A stretch of DNA of 8,739 bases from an uncultured Bacteroidota bacterium (GTDB taxonomy: Bacteria > Bacteroidota > Bacteroidia > Flavobacteriales > Flavobacteriaceae): contig CAILTC010000157.1 of assembly GCA_903837025.1 (NCBI GenBank), positions 1 through 8,739 of the forward strand, read 5' to 3'. Positions 2 through 8,739 of the stretch are shown piece by piece. Position 1 is the stretch's first letter; every line of letters starts with the position of its first letter. A program made the position numbers and the translations under genes. The notes beneath the pieces were generated by a model. It worked only from the letters and a program-made list of their open reading frames with translations, had not been told where the DNA came from and made no database searches.

Positions 2-1186
2 ATTGCGGGTATTGCAGCAATGATTTATTGGTATGTAAAAAAACATCAAAAGAAAAAAGCCGAAGAAGAAATCTATAAAACGCCTATAGAAAAAGCGACG
101 AGTTTATTGAATTCATTAGAGAAAAAAGAGCTTTGGCAACATGGCGAGGTTAAGGAATATTATAGTGAATTGACGGGAATTGTTCGAAACTACATCGAAG
201 AAGCAATAGAAATTCCGGCGATGGAAAGTACGACTTCGGAATTGATTGAAGGACTTAAAGTAGCTTCGAAGAAAAAGAAAATGAAACTTTCGCAAGAAAC
301 TATCGAGAATTTGTTCGTGGTTTTAAAACAAGCCGATTTAGTGAAATTTGCTAAATCAAAACCATTGGATTATGAAATTACCGAAGACAGAAAGAAGATA
401 GAAAGAGCCATTGTTACGCTTGATAAATCGATTCCGGTAGTGGTGGAGAACAATGAAGAAATGTTGCTTAACGAAATGCAGCGTCAGGAACAGCTTAAGA
501 AAGAGTTACAAAAACTGCGTAAAAAACGAATTGTGATTACGATAGTTTCGGTTTTATTTCTGCTTTTTGCAACGACGACTTTTTTCATCGTTACCAAAGG
601 TTTCGATTATGTGAAAGATAATATTTTGGGTCATCCGTCGAAAGAATTGCTAGAAGGGGAATGGATAAAAAGCGAATACGGAAATCCGAGTGTACGAATT
701 GAAACGCCTCGAGTTCTAAAAAGAGTTGACTTGACAAAATCGCTTCCGAAAGACGGAATGGCTTTGATTAAGGAAATGCAATCTTTTGCTTATGGCGGTT
801 TGTTGGATAATTTTTATATTATGGTTTCAACCTTTCAATACAAGCAAGATCCGAGCGCTGGAGAACAAGGTAAGGGAATTGACTTATCAAAGGCATTGGA
901 CGGATCTTTGAAAGCGATAGAATCTCAAGGCGCACAAAACATGATTGTGAAACAAGAAGATTTTGAAACTAAAGAAGGAATCAAAGGAATCAAAGGATAC
1001 GGAACGTTTTCTAAAATTGACGGAATCAATAAAAGCAGCACAAAACTTTATTATGAAGTACTACTCTTTAGTCAAGAAGGCGGATTGCAACAAATTATGA
1101 TTGTTCATGAGGAAGGCGACAAATATGCGAATGAAATTTCAGATCGGGTTTTGAGCTCTGTTGAACTTAAAAAAGCACAGCAATAA
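2..1186 (+). CDS. BatX/DUF4381-like membrane protein of the bat cluster, 5' partial
   Basis: The frame is open to the left edge: six codons (I-A-G-I-A-A) precede the first ATG at 20 and complete a hydrophobic stretch running into IYWYVKK. That ATG is therefore probably internal to a membrane helix, and the true start lies outside the window. Numbering from the ATG at 20, a basic helical region follows the first helix. Residues about 21-138 form a cytoplasmic helical domain with the pattern seen in DUF4381/BatX-type proteins (TPIEKA, HGEVKEYYSEL, VRNYIEE, ESTTSELIEGL). A lysine-rich coiled stretch (about 150-170) leads to a second membrane helix (171-193), then an extracytoplasmic C-terminal domain of about 190 residues. 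The stop overlaps the batA start in TAATG, so the two genes are almost certainly translated together. The likely role is as an accessory membrane subunit of the Bat complex. The exact biochemical function is unknown. Confidence 0.8.
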   Translation: MAGIAAMIYWYVKKHQKKKAEEEIYKTPIEKATSLLNSLEKKELWQHGEVKEYYSELTGIVRNYIEEAIEIPAMESTTSELIEGLKVASKKKKMKLSQETIENLFVVLKQADLVKFAKSKPLDYEITEDRKKIERAIVTLDKSIPVVVENNEEMLLNEMQRQEQLKKELQKLRKKRIVITIVSVLFLLFATTTFFIVTKGFDYVKDNILGHPSKELLEGEWIKSEYGNPSVRIETPRVLKRVDLTKSLPKDGMALIKEMQSFAYGGLLDNFYIMVSTFQYKQDPSAGEQGKGIDLSKALDGSLKAIESQGAQNMIVKQEDFETKEGIKGIKGYGTFSKIDGINKSSTKLYYEVLLFSQEGGLQQIMIVHEEGDKYANEISDRVLSSVELKKAQQ

Positions 1187-2187
1187 TGGGAAAAGTATCT
1201 TTTTTAAATCCAGAGTTTTTTTGGTTGTTTCTACTAATTCCAATGGCTATTGCATGGTTGTTTTGGAAAAAAAACGAACAATCAGCAACGTTAAAGATGA
1301 GTTCTATTGAGGGATTCAAGGGCTCAAATTCATTTTTGGCAAAAGCAAAACCAATGCTAAATGTGTTTCGAATTTTGGCGCTAAGCTCTTTAATTGTTGC
1401 CATGGCAAGACCAAGAACCGTTGACATGAGCAATAAAACAAAAACCACAAAAGGGATTGATATTGTAATGGCGATCGACGTTTCGGGAAGTATGCTATCT
1501 AAAGATTTAAAGCCTAATAGAGTAGAAGCTTTAAAGCGTGTAGCTGCTGATTTTGTTGGCGAAAGACCAAATGACAGAATAGGATTGGTGGTTTATACTT
1601 CGGAAGCCTATACAAAAACACCAGTAACCAGCGACAAAGCTGTCGTTTTAGAAGCGGTAAAAAGCATCAAATATGATAATGTTTTGCAAGACGGAACCGG
1701 AATAGGAATGGGATTGTCAACTGCCGTAAACCGATTAAAAGACAGCAAAGCCAAAAGCAAAGTGATTATTCTAATGACGGATGGGGTGAATAATGCTGGA
1801 TTTATAGAACCTGAAACCGCTGCGGATATTGCCAAACAATACGGAATAAAAGTCTATACAATAGGAATCGGGACAAACGGAATGGCAGAATCTCCTTATG
1901 CTTTATCTCCAAACGGACAAATTATGTTCCAAATGATGAAAGTAGAAATTGATGAACAATTACTGAAAAATATAGCCAGAAAAACCGATGGAAAATATTT
2001 CCGAGCAACAAGCAATAGCAAATTAGCCGAGATTTATGCTTCGATCAACAAATTGGAAACAACCGAAATCAAAGAGTTGCGATTCTATGATTATGATGAA
2101 AAATTCAGACCTTTTGTGTGGTTTGCAGGCTTTTTGATCCTGTTGGAAATTGGATTACGAAACACGGTGTATAGAAGTTTTATTTAA
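1186..2187 (+). CDS. batA: BatA, von Willebrand factor A domain membrane protein
   Basis: The protein has 333 residues, the normal length for BatA. There are two N-terminal hydrophobic segments (about 9-27 and 60-74), then a VWA domain (about 90-285), then a C-terminal membrane helix (about 310-326). The metal-ion-dependent adhesion site is complete: DVSGS at 98-102, the threonine in DGTG at 171, and the aspartate of TDG at 199. The fold should therefore bind a divalent metal ion and probably a protein partner. Family knowledge places BatA in the inner membrane with its VWA domain outside the cytoplasm, paired with BatB and linked to a MoxR ATPase encoded just upstream. The start is fixed by the 1-base TAATG overlap with the preceding gene; six bases separate its stop from batB. 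The role in aerotolerance or envelope stress comes from Bacteroides and other bacteria and is not visible in the sequence. Confidence 0.93.
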   Translation: MGKVSFLNPEFFWLFLLIPMAIAWLFWKKNEQSATLKMSSIEGFKGSNSFLAKAKPMLNVFRILALSSLIVAMARPRTVDMSNKTKTTKGIDIVMAIDVSGSMLSKDLKPNRVEALKRVAADFVGERPNDRIGLVVYTSEAYTKTPVTSDKAVVLEAVKSIKYDNVLQDGTGIGMGLSTAVNRLKDSKAKSKVIILMTDGVNNAGFIEPETAADIAKQYGIKVYTIGIGTNGMAESPYALSPNGQIMFQMMKVEIDEQLLKNIARKTDGKYFRATSNSKLAEIYASINKLETTEIKELRFYDYDEKFRPFVWFAGFLILLEIGLRNTVYRSFI

Positions 2188-2193
2188 AATAAT

Positions 2194-3228
2194 ATGGAAT
2201 TAGACGAACGCAACTATTTATACCTCCTTTTTATAGTACCCATTTTGGTAGTGCTTTTTCTATTCAATTTGTATTGGAAAAGAAAAAAACAACGCGAATT
2301 TGGTGATTTAGATTTGGTGAAACGACTAAGCCCTGAAAGCTCTGTTTTTAAACCTATTTTGAAATTGGTAGTAATGCTTTTGGTATTAGTTGGCATTATT
2401 TTCGGATTGGTAAATCCGAAAATTGGAACCAAAATGGAAAAGGTAAAACGCGAAGGAATCGACATTGTTTTTGCAATGGATGTTTCCAAAAGTATGCTTG
2501 CCGAAGACGTTGCTCCAAGCCGATTGGAAAAAAGTAAACAAATTGTTTCGCAAATTATCAATCAGTTGGGCAATGATAGAATAGGAATCGTGGCTTACGC
2601 CGGAAGTGCTTTTCCGGTGTTGCCAATTACTACAGATTATAGCGTGGCGAAAATGTTTTTGCAAAGCATGAATACAGATATTGTTTCCTCGCAAGGAACA
2701 TCGTTGGTAGAAGCTATCAAATTATCATCGACTTATTTTGATGATAAAAGCAAAACCAGCAAATTGATGATTTTGATTTCGGACGGTGAGGATCATTCTG
2801 ATGGTGCAGATGAAGCTGCTGCAGAAGCTAATAAATTGGGAATAAAAATCATAACTATTGGCGTTGGAACCGAAAAAGGAGGTCCAATTCCTTTAAAAGT
2901 AAATGGTATTGTTCAAAGTTTTAAACGCGACAATAACAATGAAGTGGTTGTCACTAAGATGAATCAAGAAAGTTTGAAAGCCATTGCTAAAGCTACAAAA
3001 GGCGGATATGTGAATGGAAATAATACTAAAGAAGTGCTAGAATATATCAAAAACGCGCTGAATAATATACAGAAAACCGAATTTGAATCGACGCAAATGG
3101 CCGATTTTCAATCGCAATTTCAATGGTTTTTAGGGTTTGCTTTTCTACTGTTGTTTTTAGATATTTTCTTTTTAGAAAGAAAAACTAAATGGGTAAGAAA
3201 GTTGAATTTGTTTAATGAAAAAGAATAA
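2194..3228 (+). CDS. batB: BatB, von Willebrand factor A domain membrane protein
   Basis: The protein has 344 residues and is a paralogue of BatA next door. An N-terminal helix (about 9-27) and a second hydrophobic segment (about 55-73) precede the VWA domain. A C-terminal helix (about 311-327) ends in a basic tail. The MIDAS residues are present: DVSKS at 96-100, T169 in QGTS and D197 in SDGED. The second position of the signature that is glycine in BatA (DVSGS) is lysine here, which does not touch a coordinating residue. BatB is expected to sit in the inner membrane beside BatA, with TPR proteins BatC and BatE as partners. Translation starts six bases after batA, and the stop overlaps the batC start in TAATG, so coupling is likely. 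Identification rests on MIDAS, topology and position in the cluster. Confidence 0.92.
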   Translation: MELDERNYLYLLFIVPILVVLFLFNLYWKRKKQREFGDLDLVKRLSPESSVFKPILKLVVMLLVLVGIIFGLVNPKIGTKMEKVKREGIDIVFAMDVSKSMLAEDVAPSRLEKSKQIVSQIINQLGNDRIGIVAYAGSAFPVLPITTDYSVAKMFLQSMNTDIVSSQGTSLVEAIKLSSTYFDDKSKTSKLMILISDGEDHSDGADEAAAEANKLGIKIITIGVGTEKGGPIPLKVNGIVQSFKRDNNNEVVVTKMNQESLKAIAKATKGGYVNGNNTKEVLEYIKNALNNIQKTEFESTQMADFQSQFQWFLGFAFLLLFLDIFFLERKTKWVRKLNLFNEKE

Positions 3229-3995
3229 TGAGAAATTTTATAATATATATTTTACTAGCGTTTTCTTTTGCTGTTTCGGCACAAGAAAAAGACAAAACTT
3301 TGCCTAAAGCAAATGATGAATATGCGGAAAAAAAATTCGTTGATGCGGAAGCGGATTACAGAATTTCGCATTCAAAGTTTCCAAAAAAAGCGGAAGCCTC
3401 TTATAATTTAGGAAATGCTATTTATAAGCAAAACCAAAATTCGGAAGCCAAATTTGCTTATGCAAATGCAATTAAAAACACGAAATCAAGAACTCAAAAA
3501 CATTTGGCTTTTCACAATTTGGGAAATGTTCTTATGAAGGAAAAAAATTATTCGGAAGCGGTTGAAGCCTATAAAAATGCTTTGCGCAACAAACCGTCGG
3601 ACGAACAAACAAGATATAATTATGCTTTGGCCAAAAAAATGCTCAAAGAAAATCCTCCCAAAGACGATAAGAAAAAAGATAAAAATAAAGACAAGAAAGA
3701 CGACAAGAAAAAGGACGACAAGAATAAAGATAAAAAGGACGATAAGAAAGACGGAGACAAGGATAAGAAAAAAGACGACAAAGGAAAAGATAAGGATAAA
3801 CCCAAAGATAAGCCAGGTGAAAATGATAAAAAACCAGGTGATAATGGGCAACCAAAACCAGCTCCAGGCGGAATTTCGAAACAACGATTAGAGAATCTTT
3901 TAGACGCGGTAAACAACGAAGAAAAGAAGGTTCAAGACAAAGTAAACGCACAGAAAGTAAAAGGAAAACCAGTAAAAACTGAAAAAGATTGGTAA
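3228..3995 (+). CDS. batC: BatC, exported TPR protein with a lysine/aspartate-rich linker
   Basis: The protein has 255 residues. A signal peptide covers residues 1-18, with a likely cut after AVSA and glutamine as first mature residue. TPR-like helices span about 25-138, with recognisable repeats at SYNLGNAIYK and AFHNLGNVLM followed by YSEAVEAYKNAL. A very charged low-complexity linker follows (about 145-205); in residues 145-190, 42 of 46 are lysine or aspartate. A proline/glycine stretch leads to a conserved-looking C-terminal helix beginning at GGISKQRLENLL and ending in KDW, as I remember for Bacteroidetes BatC. TPRs usually hold protein partners, so BatC probably scaffolds BatA, BatB or BatD at the outer face of the inner membrane. 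The start overlaps the batB stop by one base. Several long open frames on both strands across the linker are artefacts of its repetitive codons. Confidence 0.9.
   Translation: MRNFIIYILLAFSFAVSAQEKDKTLPKANDEYAEKKFVDAEADYRISHSKFPKKAEASYNLGNAIYKQNQNSEAKFAYANAIKNTKSRTQKHLAFHNLGNVLMKEKNYSEAVEAYKNALRNKPSDEQTRYNYALAKKMLKENPPKDDKKKDKNKDKKDDKKKDDKNKDKKDDKKDGDKDKKKDDKGKDKDKPKDKPGENDKKPGDNGQPKPAPGGISKQRLENLLDAVNNEEKKVQDKVNAQKVKGKPVKTEKDW
3660..3842 (+). repeat. Lys/Asp low-complexity tract inside batC
   Basis: These bases encode residues 145-205 of BatC and consist almost only of AAA/AAG and GAC/GAT codons, so the DNA is purine-rich on the + strand with near-repeats of AAAGACGAT and GACAAGAAA. The protein segment is expected to be disordered and highly charged with nearly balanced sign (24 K and 18 D in residues 145-190). 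Such tracts often change length between strains by slippage or unequal recombination. Here the reading frame is kept throughout. Confidence 0.85.
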
Positions 3996-4017
3996 TTCAA
4001 TTAGAATAATACAAAAA

Positions 4018-5784
4018 ATGAAAAAATTTATAATAGCGATTGTTTTATTGGTGAGCAACTCTCTTTTGGCCCAAGTTCAATTTGAAGCCAAAGTAAGTAA
4101 AAACACGCTGGGACTAAACGAGAGACTTCGCATCGATTTTACCATGAATATTGATGGTGACAATTTTAATCAGCCTTCATTCGAAGGATTTAGGGTTATA
4201 GCCGGACCAAGCCAGCAAGTGAGTCAATCATGGGTTAACGGGAAAAGTTCTTTCGAAAAAACCTATTCTTATTACCTTTTGCCACTACAAAAAGGGGCTT
4301 TCATTATCAAACAGGCTTCGATAGAATACAATGGGCAAATTTATAAAACATCACCCATAAAAATCAATGTTACTAATGCGGTGCAAGAAGCAAAAGATCC
4401 CAATGATGTTGCTCAGGTTTCGGCGGACAACAATATTTATCTCGTTGCAGATATTTCTAAAACAAACCCCTACATCAACGAACCCATTACGGTCGTGTAT
4501 AAATTGTATTTCAGTTATAATGTAGGAATCTCCAATTGGAGAGAATTAGACAAGCCAAAATACAATGATTTTTGGAGTCAGAACATTGATATTAAGCAGC
4601 TTGTTGGCGAAGAAGGAATGTTTAAAGGGGAGAAATACCGTTTTGTAGTACTTCGGAAAACAGTTTTATATCCGCAAAAATCCGGAAAACTGGTCATAGA
4701 ACCATTGTCTTTAGATATCGACGTACAATTACCAACCAATCGTAGAGATATGTTTGGTCGTGTAGTTGTAACCAACGGAAGCAAAAGAGTTTCTGCTGGC
4801 GCCAAAACAATTTCGGTTAAAGCGCTTCCGGAAGCTGGAAAACCAGCAGGATTTTCAGGAGCTGTTGGGAAATTTGATTTTAGAGTTACCCCTTCAAAAA
4901 CGAATTTGAAAAACGGAGAAAGTCTAACTTTACTTGTTAGTGCTTCTGGAAACGGAAACATGAAATTGTTTAATTTGCCAAAACCAGAAGTTCCAAATTC
5001 ATTAGAAATGTACGATCCAGTTCATAACGAACAAGTCAATACGGCCTTGACAGGAATGTCAGGAAAAATATCGGACACCTATACAATTGTTCCACAGTTT
5101 AAAGGGAATTATGCCATAAAACCCATGCAGTTTTCTTATTTTGATTTGAATTCCGGAACTTATAAAACCATCAATTCACCAGAAATAATGGTTAATGTTC
5201 TTGATGGTCCAATGGCAAATAATGAGCAAGCTGCTGCAGCTACAACTGCTGGTGTTGCGAAAAATAAAATATCGAGTTCGGATCAATTCAAATACATTAA
5301 GCTAAAAAGCAATCTTGTTTCGATGAAAAAGGAAGATTTCTTTGGGTCGAAATCTTTTTATGGATTGTTATTTTTGCCGTTTTTAATCCTACCATTAATT
5401 GTATTGTTCAAAAAGAAAAAAGAAGCAATAGATGGCGATGTTAGAGGAAACAGAATCAAATTGAACAACAAATTGGCTAAAAAATATTTATCAGAAGCCA
5501 AAAAACAAATCAATAACAAAGAGCCATTTTATGTAGCTTTAGAAAAAGCCATGCACAATTTCTTGAAAGCCAAATTGCATATCGAAACTTCGGAAATGAG
5601 TAAAAGCAATATTCAGGATCTCTTGTTATCAAGAAATGCAAGTCCAGAAACGGTAATCGAATTTATTGCTCTAACCGAGAACTGTGAACTGGCAAGATAT
5701 GCGCTGACATCAAGTTCTGTTATTCATCAGGATTTTGATAAAGCAGTTTTGATCATTTCAGATTTAGAAAAACAGATTTCTTAA
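4018..5784 (+). CDS. batD: BatD, large exported and membrane-anchored protein
   Basis: The protein has 588 residues, typical for BatD. A signal peptide covers about residues 1-18 (cut near SLLA before QVQF). A long extracytoplasmic part follows (about 20-440), rich in beta strands and with Ig-like character. The BatD-type stretches include LNERLRIDF, INEPITVVYKLYF and RKTVLYPQKSG. One membrane helix (449-464) is followed by KKKK, placing the last 120 residues in the cytoplasm. That tail (about 482-587) is helical and resembles the cytoplasmic domain of the first gene in the window (see findings). The gene begins 22 bases after batC behind an A-rich leader (ACAAAAA then ATG), normal for this phylum. 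The role is inferred from the family: the large periplasmic component of the Bat complex. No enzymatic motif was seen. Confidence 0.9.
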   Translation: MKKFIIAIVLLVSNSLLAQVQFEAKVSKNTLGLNERLRIDFTMNIDGDNFNQPSFEGFRVIAGPSQQVSQSWVNGKSSFEKTYSYYLLPLQKGAFIIKQASIEYNGQIYKTSPIKINVTNAVQEAKDPNDVAQVSADNNIYLVADISKTNPYINEPITVVYKLYFSYNVGISNWRELDKPKYNDFWSQNIDIKQLVGEEGMFKGEKYRFVVLRKTVLYPQKSGKLVIEPLSLDIDVQLPTNRRDMFGRVVVTNGSKRVSAGAKTISVKALPEAGKPAGFSGAVGKFDFRVTPSKTNLKNGESLTLLVSASGNGNMKLFNLPKPEVPNSLEMYDPVHNEQVNTALTGMSGKISDTYTIVPQFKGNYAIKPMQFSYFDLNSGTYKTINSPEIMVNVLDGPMANNEQAAAATTAGVAKNKISSSDQFKYIKLKSNLVSMKKEDFFGSKSFYGLLFLPFLILPLIVLFKKKKEAIDGDVRGNRIKLNNKLAKKYLSEAKKQINNKEPFYVALEKAMHNFLKAKLHIETSEMSKSNIQDLLLSRNASPETVIEFIALTENCELARYALTSSSVIHQDFDKAVLIISDLEKQIS

Positions 5785-5913
5785 AAAAGCACACCGATTA
5801 AAAGGATGCAAGCAACGCCGATAAAAACAGATTTGTATTTTAAAATATTCGTAGAAATCCGTGTTTTCAATTTGTCGAATCCGTTTCATCTGTGTTCCAA
5901 ATAAACATAAACA
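5785..5913. other. batD-batE spacer with short degenerate repeats
   Basis: This 129-base gap is the only sizeable one in the bat cluster. It holds two near copies of CCGATWAAAA (about 5794 and 5818), a perfect 12-base palindrome TATTTTAAAATA (5836-5847), and three near copies of ATCYGTKT (5857-5864, 5879-5886, 5888-5895). From memory, words like the last set are common in flavobacterial intergenic repeats. No clear terminator or TAnnTTTG promoter box was found, so batE probably still depends on readthrough from batD. Confidence 0.5.
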
Positions 5914-6657
5914 ATGAAAAAGTTATTATTTATTTTTTTACTTACCACCCAAGTTTTCTTTGCCCAAAGCGGTTTCGAAACAGGGAATTCCTTATATCAA
6001 AAGGGAAAATACGAGCAAGCTGTTACCGCTTATGAAAGTGTTTTGGCCACCAAAATGCAATCATCAGAATTGTATTTTAATATAGGAAATTGCTATTTTA
6101 AATTAAACAAAGTAGCTCCTGCAATTTATAATTATCAAAAAGCTTTGGTGCTTAATCCAGACGATTCTGAAATTCAAAATAATCTTAGATTCGCTCAAAA
6201 ATTAACCATCGATGAGGTAAAAGAAGTGCCAAAAGTGGGTTTCTCCAAATGGATTCATGATCTCACCTCGACCTTTCAGTACAATACTTGGGCGTGGATT
6301 TCGGTTGGAATTTCAACCGTTTTTCTATTGTTTTTTCTTGGCTATTATTTTTCACAAACAACATTATACAAACGCCTTTTTTTCTTCGGGATGTTCGCTT
6401 TATTATTCCTGCTTTTAATCAGTATTGCGGCAGCTATTACAGAGAAAAACGATTTTGACAATGAAAGACCAGCCGTTGTTTTTGCCGAGATGGTTTTGGT
6501 AAAAAGCGAACCACAAGCAGCAAGTTCAACCGTTTTTACCCTTCATGAAGGAACAACAGTATTTGTTTTGGAATCAGTTGACAGTTGGAAAAAAATTCAA
6601 TTGGCCGATGGAACCCAAGGCTGGATAGCGAAAAACGCAATCAAAGAAGTAAAATAG
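5914..6657 (+). CDS. batE: BatE, TPR and SH3-like membrane protein
   Basis: The protein has 247 residues. A signal peptide covers about residues 1-18 (VFFA before QSGFE). Two TPR units follow (about 19-85: GNSLYQKGKYEQAVTAYE, then LYFNIGNCYFKLN and YQKALVLNPDD). Two membrane helices lie at about 126-146 and 154-175. A C-terminal bacterial SH3-like domain spans about 187-245, recognisable from VVFAEMVLVKSEP, LHEGTTVFVLE and DGTQGWIAK. This order (signal, TPR, two helices, SH3) is the BatE layout. The protein should sit in the inner membrane with both the TPR and SH3 parts outside the cytoplasm, perhaps touching cell wall or Bat partners. It is the last gene of the cluster, separated from batD by 129 bases and followed 145 bases later by a strong hairpin terminator. 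Confidence 0.9.
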   Translation: MKKLLFIFLLTTQVFFAQSGFETGNSLYQKGKYEQAVTAYESVLATKMQSSELYFNIGNCYFKLNKVAPAIYNYQKALVLNPDDSEIQNNLRFAQKLTIDEVKEVPKVGFSKWIHDLTSTFQYNTWAWISVGISTVFLLFFLGYYFSQTTLYKRLFFFGMFALLFLLLISIAAAITEKNDFDNERPAVVFAEMVLVKSEPQAASSTVFTLHEGTTVFVLESVDSWKKIQLADGTQGWIAKNAIKEVK

Positions 6658-7499: not shown

Positions 7500-7856
7500 A
7501 TGTCAAGAGATATACAACTCAAAGAGCGCTGGGAACAGCTTGTTATTATACTTTCCAATCAATTTTCGCAGGGCGAAGACTTAGATCTCGATGCCATTAT
7601 CTATTTAATTGGCGTACAAGAACTCGGAAAAGTACATCAAACGTATGAAAAAGACGAAAAATTAAACTTGATGCACATTGCCATTTGTCGATTATTAGAA
7701 CCGTATGGTTTTTATGAATTCGAATTTTTCGACGAAGAAGGTTGGCCTCATTATAAGGTAAAAGAGGAATTACCGCCTTTAAAAGCAGGCGAACAATCAG
7801 TTTTAATGAAAGAAGCAATTGTTAATTATTTTCTCGAAAAAGAAATAATTGATTGA
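7500..7856 (+). CDS. Conserved-looking 118-residue protein of unknown function
   Basis: The protein is acidic and soluble, with no signal peptide or membrane helix. The N-terminal helix (IQLKERWEQLVIILSNQF, about 5-22) is followed by an acidic turn (GEDLDLDA), a central helical part (LIGVQELGKV, about 36-45), and NLMHIAICRLLEPYGFYE (about 56-73). A compact aromatic/acidic segment follows (EFEFFDEEGWPHYKV) and a final helix (about 100-116). I recall similar uncharacterised proteins in flavobacteria but cannot name a family. The frame and codon use look like real coding sequence. It is divergent from the cvpA gene and lies just before the pheS 5' end, so a housekeeping role is plausible but unproven. 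No sequence-based function can be assigned. ATG at 7500 is the first start in frame after array B. Confidence 0.8.
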   Translation: MSRDIQLKERWEQLVIILSNQFSQGEDLDLDAIIYLIGVQELGKVHQTYEKDEKLNLMHIAICRLLEPYGFYEFEFFDEEGWPHYKVKEELPPLKAGEQSVLMKEAIVNYFLEKEIID

Positions 7857-7863
7857 TTTGTAT

Positions 7864-7882
7864 TTGCGAGGAATGGAGCAAT
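7864..7882. repeat. Possible dispersed-repeat remnant (TTGCGAGGAA)
   Basis: TTGCGAGGAATGGAGCAAT resembles the TTGCGAGGAACGAAGCAAT words that I recall as abundant intergenic repeats in many bacterial genomes, including flavobacteria. The ends TTGC and GCAA are complementary but the stem is too short to act as a terminator. The copy looks degenerate. Confidence 0.4.
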
Positions 7883-7899
7883 TAAGATTTGCTTCAAAA

Positions 7900-7934
7900 A
7901 CTTACAACTTACAACCTATAACTTACAACTTTTA
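7900..7934 (+). repeat. Heptanucleotide tandem array C (five units)
   Basis: Five consecutive seven-base units occur: ACTTACA, ACTTACA, ACCTATA, ACTTACA and ACTTTTA. Read in the same phase, array B units are ACTCATA, so both fit ACTYAYA loosely. The array ends two bases before the TAAATTTG box at 7937 and occupies where a -33 element would be. Confidence 0.8.
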
Positions 7935-7936
7935 CC

Positions 7937-7944
7937 TAAATTTG
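7937..7944 (+). promoter_or_regulatory. TAnnTTTG -7 box upstream of the pheS start
   Basis: TAAATTTG matches the Bacteroidetes -7 consensus and lies 16 bases before the first ATG of the pheS-like fragment. There is no TTG at the -33 distance; array C sits there. A transcript would have a very short leader. Confidence 0.55.
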
Positions 7945-7960
7945 CACTCTCAATTATTGG

Positions 7961-8029
7961 ATGAAAATGATAGACAAGATAAAAGAATATATGTCTATAT
8001 TTTTCACAAATAGAACCCTTAAAAAATAA
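7961..8029 (+). pseudogene. pheS: 5' fragment of pheS, cut off by foreign DNA
   Basis: A promoter box is followed by a 22-codon frame beginning MKMIDKIKEYM and ending in TAA at 8027-8029. From the second methionine (ATG at 7967) the residues MIDKIKEY match the start I remember for flavobacterial phenylalanine-tRNA ligase alpha subunits (usually MIDKIKEYI and onward, over 330 residues). After about 7992 the sequence no longer follows PheS: the next residues (SIFFTNRTLKK) fit nothing in it. Since pheS is essential, a complete copy must exist elsewhere, most simply at the far side of an inserted element. The assignment rests on about nine residues plus promoter and gene context, so a chance short frame remains possible. 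Confidence 0.5.
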
Positions 8030-8136
8030 GAGTTTATAAAAACTATTGAGCTTTATTTTTGATGATTTATTATATTTAATCGCCCCACTTTCACCCCACC
8101 TTGCAAAATTACTTACATAGTTTTTTCTAGAACTAT
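7993..8136. other. Non-coding AT-rich stretch at the putative element boundary
   Basis: There is no gene here beyond the tail of the truncated frame. It holds a small inverted repeat (AGTTT at 8030-8034 with AAACT), an unusual C-rich direct repeat (8083-8104), a GTAATTTTGC word on the - strand (8112-8103), and an ATAGTT/AACTAT hairpin before a T run (8117-8148). These could belong to the end of an integrated element. No inverted terminal repeat of an IS was recognised. Confidence 0.45.
8083..8104. repeat. Two-copy 11-base C-rich direct repeat
   Basis: CCCCACTTTCA is followed directly by CCCCACCTTGC (8 of 11 bases match). The block stands out in otherwise very AT-rich DNA. Short direct repeats at this position relative to a junction resemble recombinase arm-type sites, but that is only an inference. 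Confidence 0.45.
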
Positions 8137-8148
8137 TTATTTTTTTTT
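8117..8148 (+). terminator. Weak hairpin plus T run, + strand
   Basis: ATAGTT (8117-8122) pairs with AACTAT (8131-8136) around an eight-base loop, followed closely by TTATTTTTTTTT. It could end transcripts entering from the pheS promoter. The stem is only six A/T-rich pairs, so the call is weak. It has no U tract on the - strand and so would not serve the leftward gene at 8137. Confidence 0.3.
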
Positions 8149-8739
8149 AAATTTAAATCTATTTACGTTTAATATGTACAAATCATAACCTAAATAATCA
8201 GCGACAACTCCTATACAATCATAAAATTCTGTTTGTAATTTAATATAATCATCAAGTAATATAAGTTTATTATCATCATCATGATCATCATGATAACGTT
8301 TATATATCAAAAAAGTTTTTGTTTTACCTGTAATTAATAATATGAATTCATCAAATATATTGACTTCTGATAAATGCTTATCTTTTAATTTACCATTCCT
8401 ATAATAGTCATCAAACTTTTTAAAATCAAATTCAAATGAAGTTTCAAATCCACTATTTTGAAAATCAAAATGAATAAATCTCTCTTCTAAAGCTTTTGTA
8501 AAAGCTTCTTTTAATGGTTCTTGTTGTGTTTTTATCAATATGGGACCTAACTCATTACTTTTAGCATGTCCTTTCATTCTATTTATAGATTCTAATAGAT
8601 TATTATCACTTTTAAAGTTTTCAAAGGATTTTAAAAATCTCCTTTGATAAGTAATTTGTTTTATAGCTCTATGGTCAATATATTTTGTGAAATTTTCAAC
8701 TATTATATATTTTTTGTTATTATATTTTTTGAATACACC
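8137..8739 (-). CDS. Unrecognised accessory protein, 5' partial
   Basis: The frame is open from the right edge to TAA at 8139-8137, giving 200 visible residues. A methionine at 8577 is the first ATG in view, but 54 sense codons precede it without a stop, so the true start probably lies outside the window. No signal peptide or membrane helix is seen. The visible N-terminal part is basic and helical (FTKYIDHRAIKQITYQRRFL). The middle is rich in F, D and E. Near the C-terminus there is an acidic patch HDDHDDDN (from an ATCATCATG DNA repeat near 8273-8293), then a long helix (DDYIKLQTEFYDCIGVVADY) and a basic tail FKFKKK. I do not recognise a family. The DNA is much more AT-rich than the genes to the left (14 G/C in 8341-8400 against 23 in 7501-7560), which suggests acquired DNA. 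A role in the inserted element is likely but undefined. Confidence 0.65.
   Translation of the reverse strand, partial: GVFKKYNNKKYIIVENFTKYIDHRAIKQITYQRRFLKSFENFKSDNNLLESINRMKGHAKSNELGPILIKTQQEPLKEAFTKALEERFIHFDFQNSGFETSFEFDFKKFDDYYRNGKLKDKHLSEVNIFDEFILLITGKTKTFLIYKRYHDDHDDDNKLILLDDYIKLQTEFYDCIGVVADYLGYDLYILNVNRFKFKKK

Follow-up and report, generated by a model that had tools for sequence, protein, structure and literature searches.

One end of a probable genomic island within the opening codons of pheS in an uncultured Flavobacterium

Introduction

Several mobile elements are known to reside at the 5′ ends of protein genes. In the Gammaproteobacteria, these are dusA-specific integrative elements (e.g., IMEVchUSA3) and the integrative and conjugative element SXT in prfC, the latter occurring in Vibrio cholerae and Escherichia coli (PMC8409611). 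SpyCI islands of Streptococcus pyogenes are located at the 5′ end of mutL and split this gene from its promoter, and in one strain a promoter within the defective integrase gene rescues mutL (PMC3430984). From the dusA and prfC islands, the mechanism considered in this work is known in kind. We analyzed a stretch of 8,739 nucleotides (nt), called the window, which is the entire contig C157 (CAILTC010000157.1) of the uncultured Flavobacterium assembly G000 (GCA_903837025.1). Positions 7976–7992 of the window very probably contain the left boundary of a genomic island, and a tyrosine recombinase encoded by the island itself is likely to have placed it in the opening codons of pheS, an essential gene whose product charges transfer RNA (tRNA).

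Also relevant are the phage-inducible island PICI4, whose host is Gram-positive, and the 10K genomic island of Riemerella anatipestifer, a flavobacterial relative. PICI4 is reported to lie beside an unnamed aminoacyl-tRNA synthetase gene in a camel group B Streptococcus (PMC9504112). The 10K island has a tyrosine integrase and direct repeats, and its integration and excision were demonstrated (PMC6764341). No pheS island was found in the literature searched, the coverage of which does not extend to the survey Mageeney 2020, where pheS may be listed. Nor was a paper found in this literature on phenylalanyl-tRNA synthetase in connection with an integrase and an attachment site.

Results

The original prediction, made from the letters of the window, had been that pheS appears to be cut after about nine codons. 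This fits the alignment, in which identity to uninterrupted pheS stops at 7992. A core of 25 nt (7967–7991) recurred at the pheS start on contig C405 of the same assembly (C405:5998–6022, one base different) and flanked the complete island of Flavobacterium sp. N3904 (G283), which places the left junction above chance. The window contains the following features around this site (aa, amino acids; bp, base pairs; ORF, open reading frame; att, attachment site):

7500–7856, plus strand: chromosomal gene of 118 aa, the usual left neighbor of pheS (neighbor in relatives, N3904 and the genome G173)
7937–7944, plus strand: box TAAATTTG of the native pheS promoter, which we take to be a -7-like element, now separated from pheS; TANNTTTG in 20 of 20 covered relatives, activity predicted
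7961–8029, plus strand: truncated frame MKMIDKIKEYMSIFFTNRTLKK from sequence and translation, in which the pheS start runs directly into island DNA, stop codon at 8027–8029
7967–7991, plus strand: att core repeat of 25 nt, attL copy, one mismatch to C405:5998–6022, paired copies in N3904 and G173
7976–7992, plus strand: probable strand-exchange stretch (in N3904 to 7991), deduced from a C/T difference at 7975
7993–8739, no strand: left end of the island, recognized by its homology to the corresponding end in N3904, runs off the contig
8083–8099, plus strand: pair of CCCCAC repeats with an 11-bp spacing, candidate arm sites for the integrase, with pairs at homologous island ends
8137–8739, minus strand: island ORF of 200 aa from the ORF list, continuing past the end of the contig, without confident family in the family scans

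ATG codons are present at 7961 and 7967. The promoter box, the ATG, the MIDKIKEY codons, the stop ending at 8029 and the drop in G+C content were all encountered as originally described, the G+C fraction decreasing from 0.324 in 7501–8000 to 0.224 in 8001–8500. The alleged change of gene content after 8029 was seen too, but inside the window it consists of the single 200-aa ORF on the minus strand. The BLAST match of the left end in the window to N3904 extended to 8119. Positions 8030–8739 did not turn out to be ordinary core genome; among the compared loci, the left-end sequence recurred only in the islands of N3904 and G173.

For comparison with undisturbed pheS starts, 60 relatives were searched, 36 of which belong to the same genus. 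Twenty-one of these 36 were obtained as loci, and 20 of the 21 cover the pheS start. In all 20 the box TANNTTTG was in place 26–31 bp before the ATG, and in the relatives pheS follows this promoter and start codon without interruption. The 118-aa gene was located 76–149 bp upstream of pheS in 19 of the 20 genomes; L023 gave no match to it. Our genus sample comprised 398 Flavobacterium genomes and our family sample 397 genomes. A pheS-start pattern (up to two mismatches) matched in 323 of the 398 genus genomes; the remaining 75 are uninformative, among them G023 and G028, in which the contig ends within pheS. Reading the table of the 398 genomes by eye, we found two matches on one strand in G000, N3904 and G173, and one match per strand in G218, G270 and G368. 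G270 was rejected as an occupied genome because it contains a pair of pheS alleles, both uninterrupted, which account for its two matches. G218 and G368 were rejected as well, since their second matches exhibited two mismatches and were situated 294 kilobases (kb) away or on another contig. Direct repeats at the island ends (attL/attR) and empty sites in relatives, as expected of an island moved by a tyrosine recombinase, were both found.

N3904 harbors the complete island on one contig of 4.38 megabases (Mb), with core copies at 1272294 and 1297108, that is 24.8 kb apart. It is flanked by the 118-aa gene on the left and by pheS, a 138-aa gene and a presumably gpsA-like gene on the right. The window aligned with the left flank and left end of this island, and C405 with its right end. 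A remnant was detected in G173, in which two core copies are only 1.8 kb apart, both ends are kept, and the integrase is reduced to a trace of its start; its left neighbor is the 118-aa gene, as in the window and N3904. The sole sizeable ORF of the remnant (285 aa, L118:5315–6172) appeared leucine-rich-repeat-like by eye. Identical columns at the left ends numbered 116/143 for window/N3904, 100/157 for window/G173 and 99/156 for N3904/G173, and at the right ends 116/137 for C405/N3904, 105/148 for C405/G173 and 103/143 for N3904/G173.

The assembly G000 consists of 665 contigs with 89.42% completeness and 4.58% contamination, and it contains two pheS alleles, so that one might think of an assembly or binning artefact that joined unrelated DNA to the pheS start. 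This is hardly conceivable, as the same junction, homologous on both sides, exists inside the single 4.38-Mb contig of N3904 and again in G173.

A pheS model search of G000 yielded two pieces of the gene, the 5′ part on C405 and the 3′ part on C286. On C405, pheS extends from 5992 to the contig end at 6726 and reads MNMIDKIKEYIGEAQ. At a distance of 131 bp from the pheS start, a 528-aa tyrosine recombinase is encoded on the opposite strand (4274–5860), the SAM-like and catalytic domains of which (PF13102 and PF00589) both scored above the Pfam cut-offs. Thus the far junction looks as it had been envisaged: an intact pheS start lies behind the element (cut by the contig end on C405, at full length in N3904), a repeat of 7961–7992 is present (32 bp at 93.75% in N3904, the 25-nt core with its one mismatch on C405), and a tyrosine recombinase gene is adjacent. 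This gene is intact at one island end on C405 and in N3904, and absent from the G173 remnant. The N3904 integrase has 530 aa and is 88% identical to the C405 copy. Integrase matches at an E value of 1e-3 were obtained in 115 of the 398 genus genomes, and a protein search, in which 7996 candidates were scored, gave four proteins at 84–98% and the next at 43%. Querying broad genome contigs and viral contigs with the protein revealed no relative, in collections from which records near the genome of the window may be absent. Repeats of 16 bases across the integrase were sought in seven relatives and resulted in two matches, L077/L078 (G295, G173), possibly att sites of further islands.

Position 7975 is C in both left junctions (window and N3904) and T in both right junctions (C405 and N3904); G173 has T at both and is uninformative in this respect. 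Since the DNA to the left of the exchange stems from the chromosome in a left junction and from the island in a right junction, strands were probably exchanged to the right of 7975, within the following 16–17 nt (7976–7992). It would follow that the island brings along a version of the pheS start together with the sequence upstream of it, and that the rebuilt pheS owes its initial codons, including the start codon, to the island. The PheS protein is the same from MIDKIKEYI on; the insertion interrupts the beginning of the coding sequence, and the reading frame is re-established at the far junction. The junctions of C405, N3904 and G173 support the original prediction of an element integrated at the 5′ end of pheS with a replacement 5′ end. 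The accompanying statement that this is an unusual integration site has to be qualified, because 5′ ends of protein genes have precedents (dusA, prfC, mutL).

Each of the three left ends (window, N3904, G173) contains CCCCAC twice, 11 bp apart. At the right ends of C405 and N3904 the two copies are 12 bp apart, and in G173 one exact copy and one CCCAC were seen. Further single copies exist on C405 (one), in N3904 (three, on both strands) and in G173 (one). The paired CCCCAC-type repeats are predicted to bind the integrase as arm sites. Paired short repeats were also recognized by eye near the integrase start in most of twelve relatives; since these are mostly in the opposite orientation, we infer rather than read off the arm-site role of CCCCAC. 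A search for CCCCAC together with the pheS-start pattern hit five broad genome-contig records (Aminicenantes, two Clostridia, Enterococcus, Methanomicrobium) and no viral record, in collections that again may lack records near the genome of the window.

All three right ends harbor a box TATCTTTG that points at pheS and is situated 112–120 bp before it, while 0.09–0.18 boxes were expected by shuffling. At the integrase start the pheS islands are devoid of an inward box, unlike nine of ten relatives with an integrase, which have one within 40 bp (these ten were counted irrespective of insertion site, and for L080 and L081 the start of the integrase was assigned manually). The outward box in all three right ends and the missing inward box led us to predict that the island drives pheS from TATCTTTG and that the repeats are part of the leader of this transcript. 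A less probable but serious alternative is that the island is real and pheS is transcribed by read-through or from another promoter, TATCTTTG being a chance or integrase-related sequence. The distance of 112–120 bp is far from the native 26–31 bp, another motif, TGTAAAGTATTGA, is closer to pheS and by eye common to distant relatives, and the conservation of the box is partly due to shared descent, since the right ends align overall. A perfect TANNTTTG in three of three right ends is nevertheless well above the shuffling expectation and includes the integrase-less remnant of G173, and an outward box also lies ahead of ettA in the genome G004 (see below). The motif TGTAAAGTATTGA at the right end had itself been considered as pheS promoter and was set aside, as it is also present in the distant relatives G028 and G295 (by eye) and may be an integrase site.

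A sister island was identified in G004 (G004:C3:35930–58665, L136–L138). The first bases of a gene that we take to be ettA occur there twice, at 35930 and 58665, and enclose an island of 22.7 kb. Its integrase is located beside the right copy and is about 25% identical to the pheS-island integrase. Each end has a pair of GTGGG repeats, with distances of 21 and 13 bp, and TATATTTG precedes ettA by 120 bp. A 323-aa protein of this island is 98% identical to that of the N3904 island and was detected in five of the 398 genus genomes (N3904, G004, G327, G103 and, weak and partial, G211). The idea of one backbone common to these islands was dropped in the case of G000, since the 323-aa protein could not be detected there.

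The window's own island is known from its left end. Cargo was studied in N3904, where 10 of the 32 ORFs of at least 50 aa were scanned with Pfam and PADLOC. The ten products were HamA and HamB (Hachiman), a type IIG MmeI-like restriction-methylase, a ShosT-like protein, the large subunit of exonuclease VII, a resolvase, an M78 peptidase and three proteins without family. C405 encodes a Fic protein with PADLOC matches. The 323-aa protein of N3904 (L069:13360–14328) belongs to no Pfam, PADLOC, NCBIfam or PHROGs family; its end resembled a small family-A DNA polymerase by eye. A partial scan for conjugation genes gave MobP3 at an E value of 0.021, far below its cut-off, and TraI_2_C at 0.059. That the integrase matches the phage integrase family phrog_1 (E value 2.7e-16) would suit a prophage instead of a defense-carrying island. 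We consider a prophage very unlikely, since a PHROGs scan of eight proteins gave nothing better than an E value of 0.08 for head, tail and terminase families, the genes named in the scan of 10 of the 32 N3904 ORFs are defense and restriction genes, and two viral-contig scans produced no locus.

Ahead of the site, positions 20–6657 of the window contain a run of chromosomal genes, of which two adjoining ORFs (333 aa and 344 aa) resemble VWA-domain aerotolerance proteins by eye.

Discussion

Our data suggest the following course of events. The island's own tyrosine recombinase would insert the island into the first codons of pheS and would thereby equip the gene with new, island-derived initial codons, the start codon included. 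At the right end, the outward TATCTTTG box would drive pheS via a leader holding two integrase arm repeats, and the orphaned native promoter would make just a 22-codon peptide. Excision by the same enzyme would restore the native arrangement.

Several points weigh against this proposal. The integrase is rare: a full-length and close copy was found only in G000 and N3904 among the 398 genus genomes, and at an E value of 1e-30 it was present only in G000 itself among the 397 family genomes. C405 (L003:6596–6726) and C286 (L004) overlap by 131 bp with six differences (95% identity, same protein). Because of these differences the G000 bin mixes strains with two pheS alleles, and C405 need not belong to the strain of the window; a bridge by contig overlap from the window to C405 was sought in G000 and none was found. 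Islands at gene starts are not alone in having the outward box, as it also occurred in two of the ten relatives counted irrespective of insertion site. In G083, an integrase lies beside ettA on a 27-kb contig with no second copy of the ettA start and neither type of box, which speaks against a general rule. Finally, excision, the attP circle and the pheS transcript stand as predictions.

Like the pheS island, the dusA and prfC elements target translation-related genes (PMC8409611). The dusA element alters the N-terminus of the protein (61% identity over 35 residues), whereas PheS is unchanged from MIDKIKEYI on, and for dusA-type elements expression was measured, whereas the promoter of the pheS island is predicted from sequence (PMC8409611). 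The rescue of mutL in one SpyCI strain is comparable to the integrase-less remnant of G173 (PMC3430984). Replacement of the synthetase start is not stated for PICI4 in the passages cited, in contrast to the rebuilt start in the pheS island (PMC9504112). The Riemerella 10K island uses an Arg-tRNA gene as its site, the pheS island the start of a protein gene (PMC6764341). There is a further difference to SpyCI in the effect on the target. If pheS is essential, its island could hardly silence the gene. Intact SpyCI, by contrast, silences mutL and acts as a growth switch (PMC3430984).

A more far-reaching idea, which we regard as doubtful, is that a group of defense islands in Flavobacterium holds translation genes (pheS, ettA) hostage. 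They would do so by their own outward promoter and start codon, with integrase arm sites between promoter and gene. Occupancy by the integrase would then set the supply of PheS or EttA, and a host that carelessly lost the island would die or be crippled.

Should the expression of pheS depend on the island, an essential gene is tied to a mobile defense island, which would help to explain resistance to loss. With pheS, and with ettA in the related island, two genes may be added to those whose 5′ ends are rebuilt by islands. The short exchange region together with the island ends is a candidate integration system for Flavobacterium.
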